From Bacteroides uniformis (GTDB taxonomy: Bacteria; Bacteroidota; Bacteroidia; Bacteroidales; Bacteroidaceae), in the NCBI RefSeq assembly GCF_025147485.1, contig NZ_CP102263.1, positions 4,353,501-4,417,500 on the forward strand: DNA of 64,000 nucleotides. The letters run 5' to 3'. The notes below the pieces were generated by a model. That model worked only from the letters and a program-made list of their open reading frames with translations. It was not told where the DNA came from and searched no databases. Below are positions 7,723 through 12,694 of this stretch, piece by piece (positions within the stretch are counted from its first letter, which is position 1; each line of letters opens with the position of its first letter). The position numbers and the translations under genes were made by a program.

Positions 7723-9663
7723 ATGAGTTGCAAATGCTGCTGCACACACGGACATACAGCGATACAAGAAAAAAGAAACAGTCTGCTGAAAGATTATTGG
7801 AGAATCATCCTCTCCGCCCTATTGCTCTTCGGAGGGCTCATCCTGAATGCTACTGACACCACCTTCTTCAAGGGAGAGTATGTACCTTTTATATGGTACT
7901 TGCTTGCCTATCTCCCCGTAGGCCTCCCGGTGATGAGGGAAGCCTGGGAAAGCATCCTGCAAAAGGACGTGTTCAGCGAATTCACCCTTATGTCCATCGC
8001 CACCCTCGGCGCCTTCTATATAGGCGAATATCCCGAAGGCGTTGCCGTCATGCTCTTCTACTCCTTGGGAGAGCTCTTTCAGGACAAAGCCGTAGACAAA
8101 GCCAAGCGTAACATCAGCGCCCTGCTCGACGTACGTCCCGAAACGGCAACGGTCATCAGAAACGGCAGTACACTTGTCGAAGCTCCCCAACGTGTGCAGG
8201 TAGGCGAAACCATCGAAGTAAAAGCCGGAGAGCGCGTCCCCCTGGACGGAACGATGCTGGACGAAGTTGCCGCCTTCAACACCTCCGCACTGACGGGAGA
8301 AAGTGTTCCCCGCAACATCCGCCAGGGCGGGGAAGTGCTTGCCGGAATGATTGCGACCGACAAAGTCGTACGCATCCAAGTCACCAAACCCTTCGAGAAA
8401 AGTGCTCTTTCCCGTATATTGGAACTGGTGCAGAATGCCTCCGAGCGCAAAGCGCCGGCAGAACTTTTCATCCGTAAGTTTGCCCGTATCTATACGCCCA
8501 CCGTCACCGGACTGGCGGCATTGATTGTACTGCTCCCCTTCCTCTATTCGCTGGCAGATGCACAATTCTCGTTCATCTTCAATGACTGGCTATACAGGGC
8601 ATTGGTCTTTCTGGTTATCTCCTGCCCGTGCGCCCTCGTCGTAAGCATTCCGTTAGGCTACTTCGGAGGCATCGGCGCCGCCTCCCGCCTGGGTGTCCTC
8701 TTCAAAGGTAGCAACTACCTCGATGCCATCACCCAAGTCGACACGGTGGTATTCGACAAGACGGGTACGCTGACCAAAGGCACCTTCGATGTACAATCCT
8801 GCCAGGCACAACCGGGAGTTACGGAAGAGAAGTTGATACAGCTTGCCGCCTCGGCAGAGCGAAACAGTACGCACCCCATAGCCAAAGCCATCGTAAGCTA
8901 TGCCAAACAAAGAGATATAGAGCTGATTGCCACAACGGACGTTACGGAGATTGCCGGCCACGGACTGCAAGCCACTATGGATGGAACGCGTGTCCTGGTG
9001 GGCAACACCCGCCTGCTGACTAAGTTCGGGATAGAATATCCCGATGAATTGTCATCAATTGTCGATACGATTGTGGCCTGCGCCATCGGAACAAAATATG
9101 CCGGTTATCTGTTGCTATCAGACACATTAAAGGAAGATGCCGTCAACGCCGTCAAAGAATTAAAAGCTTTAAATATCAATAATATTCAGATATTATCGGG
9201 AGACAAACAAGCCATTGTTACTAACTTTGCAGAAAAGCTAGGCATCACCCAGGCATACGGAGACCTGCTGCCGGACGGAAAGGTGAAGCACATCGAGGCA
9301 CTCCGCAGCAACCCTGCCAACCGAATAGCCTTTGTGGGCGACGGCATCAATGATGCCCCGGTTCTTGCCCTTAGCCATGTGGGCATCGCCATGGGCGGAC
9401 TTGGCAGCGATGCCGCCATCGAAACCGCCGATGTAGTGATACAGACAGACCAGCCTTCGAGAGTGGCCACCGCCATTCATGCGGGCAGGCAAACCCGCCG
9501 GATTGTCTGGCAGAACATCTCGCTGGCTTTCGGAGTGAAGCTGCTTGTCCTCATCCTCGGTGCCGGTGGAATCGCCACACTTTGGGAAGCTGTCTTTGCC
9601 GACGTAGGCGTCGCCCTCATTGCGATAGTGAACGCCATACGCATACAGAAACTTATTAAATAG
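7723..9663 (+). CDS. Heavy-metal-translocating P1B-type ATPase (zinc/cadmium/lead-type)
   Basis: A 646-residue ATP-driven metal exporter of the inner membrane. The order is a short Cys/His-rich N-terminus (MSCKCCCTHGH), transmembrane helices, an actuator domain with TGES, the ion-site motif SCPCALVVS (Cys301-Pro302-Cys303), phosphorylation motif DKTGT (Asp345), STHPIAKAI with the P1B His-Pro pair, and GDGINDAP. The CPC form with GYFGGIGAA resembles ZntA/CadA-like Zn/Cd/Pb pumps more than copper pumps. The usual N-terminal HMA domain is absent and a short metal-ligand tail takes its place. The start is supported by a promoter and operator at 7657-7691. Confidence 0.93.
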   Translation: MSCKCCCTHGHTAIQEKRNSLLKDYWRIILSALLLFGGLILNATDTTFFKGEYVPFIWYLLAYLPVGLPVMREAWESILQKDVFSEFTLMSIATLGAFYIGEYPEGVAVMLFYSLGELFQDKAVDKAKRNISALLDVRPETATVIRNGSTLVEAPQRVQVGETIEVKAGERVPLDGTMLDEVAAFNTSALTGESVPRNIRQGGEVLAGMIATDKVVRIQVTKPFEKSALSRILELVQNASERKAPAELFIRKFARIYTPTVTGLAALIVLLPFLYSLADAQFSFIFNDWLYRALVFLVISCPCALVVSIPLGYFGGIGAASRLGVLFKGSNYLDAITQVDTVVFDKTGTLTKGTFDVQSCQAQPGVTEEKLIQLAASAERNSTHPIAKAIVSYAKQRDIELIATTDVTEIAGHGLQATMDGTRVLVGNTRLLTKFGIEYPDELSSIVDTIVACAIGTKYAGYLLLSDTLKEDAVNAVKELKALNINNIQILSGDKQAIVTNFAEKLGITQAYGDLLPDGKVKHIEALRSNPANRIAFVGDGINDAPVLALSHVGIAMGGLGSDAAIETADVVIQTDQPSRVATAIHAGRQTRRIVWQNISLAFGVKLLVLILGAGGIATLWEAVFADVGVALIAIVNAIRIQKLIK

Positions 9664-9668
9664 AAAAA

Positions 9669-10103
9669 ATGGAAGAAAAGAAATATTTGGACCTATTGGC
9701 CAAAAGGGACATACAGCCCACTGCCATCCGCATCCTGGTATTGCGCACCATGATGCAGGCAGGCCGTTCCGTCTCATTGCTCGACCTTGAAACCATGCTG
9801 GATACGGTGGACAAATCCACCATCTTCCGTACCCTTACCCTATTCCTCTCCCATCATCTGATACACAGTATAGATGACGGGACGGGTTCCTTCAAGTATG
9901 CCGTGTGCAGCGACAGTTGCTCTTGCGACGTAAGCGACCTGCACACCCATTTCCATTGCGAGAAATGCAACAAAACCTTCTGCTTCACCAACATTCCCAC
10001 TCCGGTGGTGAAGCTGCCTCAAGGATTTACACTGAACAGCATCAACTATGTACTGAAAGGCATTTGTCCGGACTGTGCAGCAGAAGTCAACCGGGAGGCT
10101 TAG
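9669..10103 (+). CDS. Fur/Zur-family metal-responsive repressor
   Basis: A 144-residue protein with the Fur winged-helix fold (LLAKRDIQPTAIRILVLRTM, STIFRTLTLF) and a dimerisation domain. HTHFHCEKCNKTF and GICPDCA supply the two CxxC pairs of the structural zinc site, and DLHTHFHCE supplies likely sensory His residues. It starts five bases after the P-type ATPase stop, so the two are one transcript. By context it senses zinc or a similar divalent metal and represses the pump or an uptake regulon. The TGCAAC/GTTGCA palindrome upstream of the ATPase is the best candidate site. Confidence 0.9.
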   Translation: MEEKKYLDLLAKRDIQPTAIRILVLRTMMQAGRSVSLLDLETMLDTVDKSTIFRTLTLFLSHHLIHSIDDGTGSFKYAVCSDSCSCDVSDLHTHFHCEKCNKTFCFTNIPTPVVKLPQGFTLNSINYVLKGICPDCAAEVNREA

Positions 10104-10118
10104 TTAAAAAATAAAAAT

Positions 10119-10147
10119 CCATGCAGTCATTCATGTTCTTCTCTATC
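10119..10147 (+). promoter_or_regulatory. Candidate ECF-type promoter of the sigma/barrel fusion gene
   Basis: CCATGCAGTC (10119-10128) and TATC (10144-10147) are separated by 15 bases. The same CCAyGCAGTC-N15-TATC arrangement lies at 11828-11856 before the next gene. The start codon at 10175 follows by 27 bases, a normal leader. No TAnnTTTG box is present. Autoregulation by the sigma factor encoded here is an inference. Confidence 0.45.
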
Positions 10148-10174: not shown

Positions 10175-11815
10175 ATGGATACAAAAGCTCTTGTCACTTT
10201 ATGCCAGAAGGGAAACGGGCAGGCCTTGAGCCTGCTCTACGAAAACTATTCAGAGAAAATGCTGAAAGTATGCCTACGCTATATTCCCGACCCAACGATA
10301 GCCCAAGATCTTCTTCACGACGGTTTTGTCATCATATTCACTTCCATTCATTCGCTGCGCAACCCGGAGAAACTGGAATACTGGATGAAAAAGATTATGA
10401 GAAACCTGGCACTGCAATACCTCAACCATGCCAATGCCAACCCCACCATCCCATTGACAGATATTCCGGAAGAGGAAGAGCCTGCTGAAAATCCTTTTTG
10501 TCCGGATTTCATTTCGTACGATAAGATGCTGGATATAGTGGAGAGCCTTCCGGAGGGCTACTGCAAGGTATTTAAACTGGCAGTACTGGAAGGATTGTCC
10601 CACAAAGAAATCGGAGATTTACTGGGTATAGCGCCACACTCCTCTTCCTCCCAATTGTTCCGGGCGAAAATTTTACTTAAAAAGATGCTGGCAGGATACC
10701 GTGTATTCATTGTTTTGACAGTATTGCTTCTCTTTCCAACGCTATATGACTATCTGTACAGAGAGAAAAAGAGTATCAGGGAAAACCGTTTGTCCAAAGT
10801 TTCTTCCAGGCAAGCCGGGAGTACGCAACAAACAAAGAAAGCCGATACTCCCCGAACCGACGAACAATGCTATACCAAAGAAAATCTGAACAAAAGGGAA
10901 CGAATCATCCCTCCCGTTCCAGTTTCCACAGAATGGCCCCTTGCCATACCCACAATGAAAGATAGTATCCACAAATATCCCATACCTTCTCCATTCACCG
11001 GACAGACCATCACCAACCGACAGATGGCTTTCGTCTTCTCCCCTTCCCTGATGCCGCCAACCCGCAAGAAGAAATCCGGAAAATGGAAGTTGATGCTGGC
11101 AGGTTCACTCGGACCGCAACTGGCACAGAACTTATATAAGCTGATTGCCACTCCACATACCGACGGCATTTCAAGTGACTTCCCTCAACAAGTCAGCACG
11201 TGGGAAGAGTATTATTCTTATCTGCACACCCGCTATCAGCAGGGTACTCTGGGAAAAGATTCCATCGGACTCATGCAGATTGCCCAGAATAACAGCGGCA
11301 GGATTGTTGAGAACCAGCAACATCATGCCCCCATCGTCGTGGGACTCTCTCTCAGCAAGAAATTGAATGAGCGTTGGAGTCTGGAAACCGGATTGCAATA
11401 TACGCTTCTCAGGTCGGAGTTCACTACCGGCGAAGCATTCCGCATTCAAGACAACCAGAAGTTGCATTATATCGGCATTCCTCTCCGGCTTTCCTACCGT
11501 TTCTGGCATTACAAACGTTTCTCCAGTTATGCCACGGCAGGCATGCAGGTGGATATCCCCATAAAAGGGACACTCCAAAGCTTCCATGTCACGGACAGTA
11601 TTCCACACAAGCTCGACAGCCAGCCGGTAAGTGCTCCCTGGCAGTGGTCGGTCAACACAAGTATAGGCATACAATATCGCCTCACACCCCAGGCAGGCAT
11701 CTATCTGGAGCCGACTGTAAACTATTATATCCCCGACGGCAGCCAACTGCGCACCATCCGAAAGGAACATCCGTTCACATTCACCCTCCCGGTAGGCCTC
11801 CGCATTTCCTGGTAA
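10175..11815 (+). CDS. ECF sigma factor fused to a transmembrane helix and an outer-membrane beta-barrel
   Basis: One 546-residue reading frame joins parts normally found in different compartments. Residues 8-85 are sigma-70 region 2 (NYSEKMLKVCLRYI, DLLHDGFVIIF, YWMKKIMRNLALQYL). Residues 117-172 are region 4 with its HTH (LSHKEIGDLLGIAPHSSSSQ). Residues 176-194 form one hydrophobic helix (FIVLTVLLLFPTLY) followed by a basic stretch. Residues 195-300 are a polar, Pro-rich linker. Residues 301-546 have alternating beta strands and end in GLRISW, an aromatic C-terminus typical of outer-membrane barrels. There is no separate signal peptide; the helix would act as signal anchor. The expected role is envelope sensing with release of the sigma part by proteolysis; this is inference. 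A sequencing frameshift joining two genes is unlikely but not excluded. Confidence 0.88.
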   Translation: MDTKALVTLCQKGNGQALSLLYENYSEKMLKVCLRYIPDPTIAQDLLHDGFVIIFTSIHSLRNPEKLEYWMKKIMRNLALQYLNHANANPTIPLTDIPEEEEPAENPFCPDFISYDKMLDIVESLPEGYCKVFKLAVLEGLSHKEIGDLLGIAPHSSSSQLFRAKILLKKMLAGYRVFIVLTVLLLFPTLYDYLYREKKSIRENRLSKVSSRQAGSTQQTKKADTPRTDEQCYTKENLNKRERIIPPVPVSTEWPLAIPTMKDSIHKYPIPSPFTGQTITNRQMAFVFSPSLMPPTRKKKSGKWKLMLAGSLGPQLAQNLYKLIATPHTDGISSDFPQQVSTWEEYYSYLHTRYQQGTLGKDSIGLMQIAQNNSGRIVENQQHHAPIVVGLSLSKKLNERWSLETGLQYTLLRSEFTTGEAFRIQDNQKLHYIGIPLRLSYRFWHYKRFSSYATAGMQVDIPIKGTLQSFHVTDSIPHKLDSQPVSAPWQWSVNTSIGIQYRLTPQAGIYLEPTVNYYIPDGSQLRTIRKEHPFTFTLPVGLRISW

Positions 11816-11827
11816 AAAAACGATGTG

Positions 11828-11856
11828 CCACGCAGTCTTTTACCCGACTGATTATC
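11828..11856 (+). promoter_or_regulatory. Candidate ECF-type promoter of the methyltransferase gene
   Basis: CCACGCAGTC (11828-11837) and TATC (11853-11856) have the same 15-base spacing as the motif before the sigma/barrel gene. The start it would drive lies near 11863, which favours the ATG at 11897 over the one at 11864. Confidence 0.45.
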
Positions 11857-11896
11857 TATTTATATGGATAATCAAACTCAAGAAGGAACAAAGAAC

Positions 11897-12694
11897 ATGC
11901 AGAAACGACATACCGACCGGGAAAGCTACTTTGGTGAACAGTCACAGACCAGCAAGAACTATTATATCCCCTACATAAAGGAAGTCATCGGACACATCCC
12001 CGATAAAGTGCTGGAAGTGGGCTGTGGAGAGGGAGGCAATCTGCTCCCCTTTGCCGAAGCCGGTTGCCGGGTGATGGGCGTAGACATTGATGCCACGCGA
12101 ATAGAACAAGCCAGAACCTTCTTCGCCCAAAGGCATCAGCAGGGACAGTTCATTGCCACCGACATTTTCCAGCTTAAGGACAAGGCTACGAATTTTCCCC
12201 TAATTCTTCTACACGATGTGATAGAGCATATCAGAGACAAAGAACGGTTCCTCTCCGGCCTACAAAAACATTTGTCTGCCGACGGAGCTATATTTGTAGG
12301 ATTTCCCGCCTGGCAAATGCCATTCGGAGGCCACCAGCAGATAGCACACAGCCACATTGTTTCACATTTCCCTTTTCTCCACCTCCTTCCCCGCACTTTA
12401 TACAGATGGATATTAAGACTATGCGGTGAGCAGGAACGCGTAATCACGGAGCTACTGGATATAAAGAGCACCGGATGCACCATCGAACTGTTCAATCGCA
12501 TCGCCCGGCAAGCCAACTATCAAATCATTGACCGGAGACTGTACCTTATAAACCCACATTATAAAATCAAATTCGGCTTGTCCCCACGAAGGCTCAACGG
12601 AGTTATTGCTGCTATCCCGTACATAAGAAACTTCTTTTGTACAAGTTGCTTTTACATATTAAAGAAAGGGACTAAAACTGTTAATCACTACTGA
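11897..12694 (+). CDS. Class I SAM-dependent methyltransferase
   Basis: A 265-residue methyltransferase of unknown substrate. The glycine-rich SAM motif is VLEVGCGEGGNLLPFA, followed by GVDID (motif II) and LLHDVIEHI (motif III/IV), as in the UbiE/Methyltransf_11 group. The C-terminal half (HFPFLHLLPRTLYRWILRL) is hydrophobic and may contact membrane or lipid substrates. An in-frame ATG at 11864 gives 276 residues. The one at 11897 is preferred because AAGAAGGAAC precedes it and the putative promoter ends at 11856. Its placement behind the sigma/barrel gene with a matching promoter motif suggests it is a target of that system. Confidence 0.85.
   Translation: MQKRHTDRESYFGEQSQTSKNYYIPYIKEVIGHIPDKVLEVGCGEGGNLLPFAEAGCRVMGVDIDATRIEQARTFFAQRHQQGQFIATDIFQLKDKATNFPLILLHDVIEHIRDKERFLSGLQKHLSADGAIFVGFPAWQMPFGGHQQIAHSHIVSHFPFLHLLPRTLYRWILRLCGEQERVITELLDIKSTGCTIELFNRIARQANYQIIDRRLYLINPHYKIKFGLSPRRLNGVIAAIPYIRNFFCTSCFYILKKGTKTVNHY

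Follow-up and report, generated by a model that had tools for sequence, protein, structure and literature searches.

In Bacteroides uniformis, sequence comparison and structural modelling support a single protein in which an ECF sigma factor is tied by its region-4 end to a predicted membrane helix, beyond which come a disordered tether and then an 8-stranded barrel of the outer-membrane type. Sequence analysis also supports the view that this protein has no anti-sigma stretch, and that copies of a promoter-like element, conserved with the sigma family, stand before both its gene and that of the adjacent enzyme. We propose, with a probability of roughly 0.6, that the protein is a single-polypeptide trans-envelope regulator, that is, a tethered sigma factor which would be released by a signal at the barrel and would then drive its own gene and that of the adjacent enzyme. 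The gene lies in the window, by which we mean the whole stretch of 64,000 nucleotides analyzed (contig NZ_CP102263.1, positions 4,353,501 to 4,417,500); its features are collected in Table 1.

The order of the domains is already in print. Among the papers listed by our literature searches, one was found to describe a fused sigma-barrel protein, namely Dma3 of Bacteroides thetaiotaomicron (PMC13088901), and the preliminary description of this DNA, which knew of no characterized example, is corrected on this point. According to the excerpts of PMC13088901, the cognate sigma factor of Dma3 is its N-terminal domain, and very little is known about the protein. The dma3 locus (bt_2778-2779) has no adjacent ECF21 sigma gene and is induced on deletion of dma1 or dma2; the vesicle phenotype of dma1 and dma2 mutants persisted when dma3 itself was deleted (excerpts of PMC13088901), which counts against our best explanation. 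BT2778 is annotated as a sigma-70 family sigma factor and showed a 2.3-fold change in an iron comparison (excerpt of PMC10434189). The protein examined here likewise has its sigma factor at the N terminus of the same chain and no adjacent sigma gene, and it is likened to Dma3 by description; no sequence labelled B. thetaiotaomicron is among the best 80 loci or the 120 proteins listed in our searches. New here are the lack of an anti-sigma stretch, a predicted promoter with its regulon of two genes, and an enzyme partner that can be exchanged; promoter, targets and a missing anti-sigma stretch do not figure in the excerpted description of Dma3 (PMC13088901).

Table 1. Features of the fused gene and its surroundings (positions in the window)
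Feature	Position	Strand	Basis or detail
Predicted autoregulatory promoter: -35-like TGCAGTC (10122-10128), -10-like TATC (10144-10147)	10122..10147	+	Motif conservation
Fused sigma factor, membrane helix, linker and outer-membrane barrel	10175..11815	+	546 aa, uninterrupted frame
ECF sigma regions 2 and 4, residues 1-172	10175..10690	+	Pfam, NCBIfam, fold match to sigmaE/SigW
Membrane helix, about residues 174-192, proline at 188	10694..10750	+	Hydropathy, model
Polar Pro-rich disordered linker, about residues 196-300, presumably periplasmic	10760..11074	+	pLDDT, composition, conservation
8-stranded OmpA/OprF-like barrel, residues 301-546, with conserved long loop region at about 340-384	11075..11812	+	Pfam, model, fold match
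Predicted second promoter copy, CGCAGTC-N15-TATC, before the methyltransferase gene	11831..11856	+	Whole-genome pattern scan
SAM-dependent methyltransferase	11897..12694	+	Pfam Methyltransf_12/25/11

Architecture of the fused protein

Pfam matches above the curated cut-offs place Sigma70_r2 at residues 21-85, Sigma70_r4_2 at residues 117-165 and OMP_b-brl_2 at residues 374-510, and the general sigma70-ECF model of NCBIfam covers residues 17-172. Regions 2 and 4 are present without region 3, as in ECF sigma factors. An AlphaFold2 model built on a 39-sequence alignment has a mean pLDDT of 68.2 and a pTM of 0.42, and the relative placement of its domains is untrustworthy. Region 2 is modelled confidently, residues 158-213 form one continuous helix that takes in both the recognition helix of region 4 and the membrane segment, residues 210-300 are disordered (pLDDT below 50), and beta strands span residues 304-545. 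Confidence at the helix junction is modest (pLDDT about 50-70), which speaks against our best explanation. Among Foldseek candidates, residues 1-154 align structurally with sigmaE, AlgU and SigW, and residues 301-546 with the barrels of OprF, OmpA, NspA and OmpW; the barrel has the 8 strands and the C-terminal aromatic residue of the OmpA/OprF-like fold. The preliminary description had read sigma regions 2 and 4, one membrane helix and a polar Pro-rich linker of about 100 residues in a single 546-codon frame, and had left the barrel in residues 301-546 to be confirmed by structure prediction; these results bear it out, barrel included.

The linker contains 12 Pro, 21 K/R and 9 D/E in 105 residues, and its mean column conservation is 0.26, compared with 0.75 for region 4, 0.68 for the barrel and 0.65 for the loop region at residues 340-384. 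A tether so long, disordered and poorly conserved would suit a protein whose barrel is an anchor, the signal being periplasmic (stretching or clipping of the linker, for example) rather than sensed at the surface. This we judge improbable: the loop region is conserved about as well as the barrel, suggesting a specific contact, an argument qualified by P0120 (501 aa), which lacks much of that loop region.

A 12-bp direct repeat, GATGCTGGCAGG, is present at 10684-10695 and 11092-11103, 408 bp apart, and flanks the membrane helix and linker. P0009 and P0010 (410 aa, one member each) lack the 136-codon stretch between the repeats; its loss would leave an untethered sigma factor fused to the barrel.

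The Dma family (dual membrane-spanning anti-sigma) is defined in PMC13088901. With it the fused protein shares the membrane helix, the long disordered tether and the C-terminal barrel of outer-membrane type; unlike Dma proteins, it has no adjacent separate ECF21 sigma gene, its neighbours being a Fur-family gene and a methyltransferase gene, and the N-terminal cytosolic anti-sigma (sigma-binding) domain is absent, the helix coming straight after region 4. The scan for the helix was anchored on the HSSSS motif of region 4, called starts being short in 5 of 77 rows (L043, L051, L053, L057 and L079); in every one of the 78 fused proteins (77 loci plus the window), the helix begins 16-22 residues beyond this motif. 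The fused protein is thus not a sigma factor and an anti-sigma factor joined end to end; the brake would be missing or replaced by the tether. Across 27 split pairs, about 40-64 residues precede the helix of the Dma barrel protein, and 17 of the 27 have a P...W..hydrophobic pattern before it; this agrees with the excerpted Dma description (PMC13088901). Dma1/Das1, Dma2/Das2 and EcfO/Reo, the last a split pair thought to sense outer-membrane stress (excerpts of PMC9308784 and PMC13114119), have the same tether and barrel topology, and their sigma factors and barrels are homologous to those of the fused protein but encoded by separate genes.

Could the fused protein then be mainly a Dma-type anti-sigma factor, its sigma-like domain acting as a decoy or titrating another sigma factor or RNA polymerase? 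Its tether and barrel type are those of Dma, and Dma3 is grouped with the Dma anti-sigma factors in the excerpts of PMC13088901. However, residues of regions 2 and 4 are conserved (D45, D49, F51 and HSSSSQL are invariant across 39 homologues), and the promoter family described below tracks the fused proteins, which would fit an active sigma factor. We consider a decoy quite improbable.

The preliminary description had likened the protein to FecR/SusC systems. Its view of one chain doing the work of several proteins is a fair reading; FecR/SusC as the closest analogue was rejected, as Dma proteins are closer. In FecR/FecA-type signalling an outer-membrane event controls an ECF sigma factor, but through several proteins and a TonB-dependent receptor, whereas here there is one chain, in which Pfam found no TonB-dependent receptor domain. 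The extension of ECF41-type sigma factors is soluble and cytosolic, whereas that of the fused protein is predicted to cross the envelope. ECF41-type proteins also have a regulatory domain fused to the sigma factor (excerpt of PMC3426412).

Occurrence and descent

A homologue search returned 1983 proteins at E ≤ 1e-3. The preliminary description had called for a count of homologues with the same architecture; region 2, region 4 and barrel are found together, at a query coverage of at least 95%, in 107 among the 120 matches listed of these 1983. Scanning genome records yielded 404 relatives, and the 80 best of them serve as our loci. These 80 span Bacteroides, Parabacteroides, Phocaeicola, Prevotella and relatives, Paraprevotella, Alloprevotella and Muribaculaceae (L064, whose record bears the title Roseburia, is a metagenome bin), and the closest titled record among them is B. 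rodentium, at 97%. In an even draw of the phylum, the fused protein is present in 3 of 395 genomes, this one included, all of one family; within the genus, 13 of 158 genomes match it at E ≤ 1e-60. No relative was confirmed in viral contigs in a single-protein scan.

The fused frame is intact in 77 of the best 80 loci, which are kin to one another, so that counts across loci are not independent; L042 is frame-broken in the linker, and L046 and L087 gave no fused frame. A frameshift artefact was rejected on the strength of these intact loci. More broadly, a frameshift, a misassembly or a decaying, functionless fusion is extremely improbable, being largely refuted by conservation across families. 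Broken copies in 3 of the 13 genus genomes (G034, G075 and G097) and in B. rodentium L042, together with truncated clusters such as P0060 and P0012, would be in keeping with decay; against it stand the intact loci, the single clade formed by 25 of the 77 fused loci and the window (SH-aLRT 99), and the promoter motif retained in 67 of 72 loci.

That clade comes from a sigma-domain tree of 58 rows, comprising 25 hand-picked fused loci of the 77, the window, 29 split sigma factors and 3 other ECF sigma factors, in which the 26 fused rows fall on one side of the branch. Among the fused sigma factors, Parabacteroides rows are interspersed with Bacteroides rows. The tree fits one fusion origin, followed by patchy loss and perhaps transfer.

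Several near-identical relatives (P0003, P0008, P0020, P0060 and P0012) have a truncated or frame-shifted barrel or no sigma part, with P0060 representing 270 and P0012 417 member sequences; they may be alleles that are broken, phase variants or fragments from assembly. In B. rodentium (L042, 5001-6640; G097/L121), the frame is broken in the linker and both promoter copies are kept.

This genome also has two split pairs, L002 (sigma factor of 187 aa, barrel protein of 441 aa) and L005 (202 and 366 aa). A frame of 632 codons was considered as a second fused paralogue and rejected, as it is a split pair with a stop codon followed directly by an ATG. In L002, the stop codon of the sigma gene is followed at once, in the same frame, by the ATG of the barrel-protein gene (1464-1467).

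Promoter-like elements and neighbouring genes

The heptamer TGCAGTC lies upstream of the fused gene in 67 of the 72 usable loci (of 78), compared with a Markov-shuffle mean of 0.92 of 72 and with 0 on the reverse strand. Its distance to the ATG is 41-84 nt in 65 of the 67, and 112 and 220 nt in the other two; with a loose definition, a -10-like element follows 14-16 nt beyond it in 66 of the 67. It is missing upstream of 5 of the 72 genes, two of which have CGCAGTC, a point against our best explanation.

The window contains 2 matches to the pattern where 0.07 were expected, and a fuller pattern has exactly 2 sites in the 4.63-Mb genome, at 10122 and 11831 of the window (control 0). With one mismatch allowed, 19 sites are found (control 10), of which 16 lie inside reading frames of at least 80 codons and 3 are intergenic; among these 3, only the 2 exact ones directly precede a gene. 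The exact pattern stands directly beside the fused gene in 10 of the 13 genus genomes with the protein, by comparison of coordinates, while G001 and G137 have TGCAGTC with another spacing or -10 sequence and none was seen in G034. On its own the pattern is not diagnostic, which also counts against our best explanation: 64 of the 158 genus genomes have at least one match, sporadically without the fused gene. Given these sporadic matches, the promoter claim rests on the position of the motif and its uniqueness within the genome. From the sequence, the fused sigma factor of this genome appears to read a private promoter that would control only its own gene and one adjacent enzyme gene.

Split sigma genes carry a different heptamer. 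TGCAGTA, not TGCAGTC, is found 50-57 nt upstream of 18 of 22 distinct split sigma genes (from 30 rows, leaving out 3 fused genes, 3 unrelated ECF genes and the duplicate rows of two genes), usually followed by GCATTTA; in the second split pair of this genome (L004/L005) it lies 175 nt upstream and was not counted as a promoter. The recognition helix of the split sigma factors mostly reads KSSASQL (also KSSSSQL, RSSASQL and HSSTSQL), compared with HSSSSQL in the fused proteins. To judge from these motifs, fused/TGCAGTC and split/TGCAGTA look like two insulated sigma-promoter pairs; the matches to the promoter pattern in 64 of the 158 genus genomes speak against this view. A literature search for the motif gave no Bacteroides sigma paper among the matches listed. 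The recognition motif of B. fragilis EcfO has already been published, according to an excerpt of PMC7366714, so TGCAGTA-type motifs may be partly known.

A second motif copy follows the fused gene in 63 of the 77 loci. In the window, the methyltransferase ATG at 11897 is preferred over that at 11864 because a -10-like element occupies 11853-11856 and relatives begin with MQxRH. Across the 78 loci, 144 of 195 motif occurrences lie in promoter position on the same strand, whereas 60 permuted motifs gave a mean of 1.5 and a maximum of 11. These occurrences precede 68 fused genes, 24 methyltransferases, 24 radical SAM proteins, 16 lipoproteins, 5 CotH proteins and 7 other genes, one of the 7, an open frame truncated at the edge of the window excerpt, being probably spurious.

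Near the fused gene, a methyltransferase is found in 27 of the 78 loci (window included), a radical SAM/SPASM protein in 32, a Gfo/Idh/MocA oxidoreductase in 30 and a small lipoprotein, without Pfam match and named from its N terminus, in 18; domains of these families were checked on one or two members each. In B. salyersiae (L039) the motif precedes a family-2 glycosyltransferase, followed by a PMT-like enzyme. In 6 loci the methyltransferase is encoded on the other strand; 4 of these (L072, L089, L101 and L115) have the motif on that strand too, spaced in keeping with the methyltransferase's own start. The neighbouring enzymes could modify glycans or lipids, a hint that they may have a role in envelope remodelling. 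As to substrate, the methyltransferase gave generic matches only, and the radical SAM protein of L064 has no solved relative by sequence at E ≤ 1e-3.

Other features of these neighbourhoods were recorded. A family of 924-948 aa in L084, L086 and L089 (with LTD and CotH domains in L084) has the motif upstream in 5 loci. Immediately before the fused gene come genes for a P-type metal ATPase and a Fur-family regulator (window 7723-10103), an order kept in B. rodentium; no upstream gene family is common to at least 6 of the 78 loci at a fixed place. A subfamily of 503 aa (L133, 526-2037; L132; L134) occurs in these three loci alongside an MQxRH-type gene of 260 aa, with the motif present twice. 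This pair resembles the two-gene locus of Dma3, and the subfamily is possibly the Dma3 subtype of B. thetaiotaomicron.

Signalling across the envelope

In our preferred reading, the sigma factor would reside in the cytoplasm, kept inactive by the tether. A signal at the barrel, be it a ligand, the state of the lipopolysaccharide or failed barrel assembly, would cause the chain to be cut within the membrane helix or next to it. Once free, the sigma factor would transcribe its own gene, providing positive feedback, and one enzyme gene, here that of the methyltransferase, whose product would modify an envelope or surface component. We therefore read the locus, on its predicted promoters, as a self-contained two-gene circuit made of the fused gene and one modifying enzyme.

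Regulated cleavage near the helix is a step that we infer, and two features hint at it. One is the missing anti-sigma stretch; the other is a proline that lies within the membrane helix of 68 of the 78 fused proteins, compared with 1 of 28 rows assigned to split Dma proteins, among them one misfiled fused protein (L119). Absence of the proline from the other 10 of the 78 helices argues against our best explanation. A site-2 protease (PF02163) is present in this genome and also in all 14 control genomes, hence it lends weak support.

Membrane-bound activators such as CadC and ToxR offer a different precedent, in which the sigma factor would work while tethered: a barrel signal would shift the helix and expose region 4, with no cleavage. 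The missing anti-sigma stretch fits this alternative, as does the predicted regulon, which is very small and strictly local, with two sites beside the gene itself; insertion of the protein into the membrane while it is being made could draw these sites close to it. However, the modelled recognition helix runs on into the membrane helix, a geometry that would be poor for promoter binding, and a proline in a membrane helix, as in most of the fused proteins, is commoner in helices that are cleaved. We regard action without release as unlikely.

A more specific version of release by cleavage, to which we give somewhat less than even odds, is a one-protein system spanning three compartments, a sigma factor without anti-sigma factor and covalently bound to both membranes. 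It would be cut loose on encounter of its barrel with a particular outer-membrane or glycan state and would then, from a promoter exclusive to it in the genome, drive its own gene and that of a single envelope-modifying enzyme, swapped between lineages. The swapped enzymes would be a methyltransferase; a radical SAM protein with a Gfo/Idh/MocA oxidoreductase; or a glycosyltransferase with a PMT-like enzyme.

Should the circuit prove to work in this way, few routes from the outer membrane to transcription would be simpler. The predicted promoter, the two-gene regulon and the named candidate targets make the function of an orphan regulator testable, and the pairing of the sigma clade with its promoter, which differs in one base of the -35-like element from the promoter found with most split paralogues, points to a possible insulated expression part. 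The family is found widely, if patchily, across Bacteroidales, so the circuit would have a bearing on surface sensing and remodelling in these bacteria.
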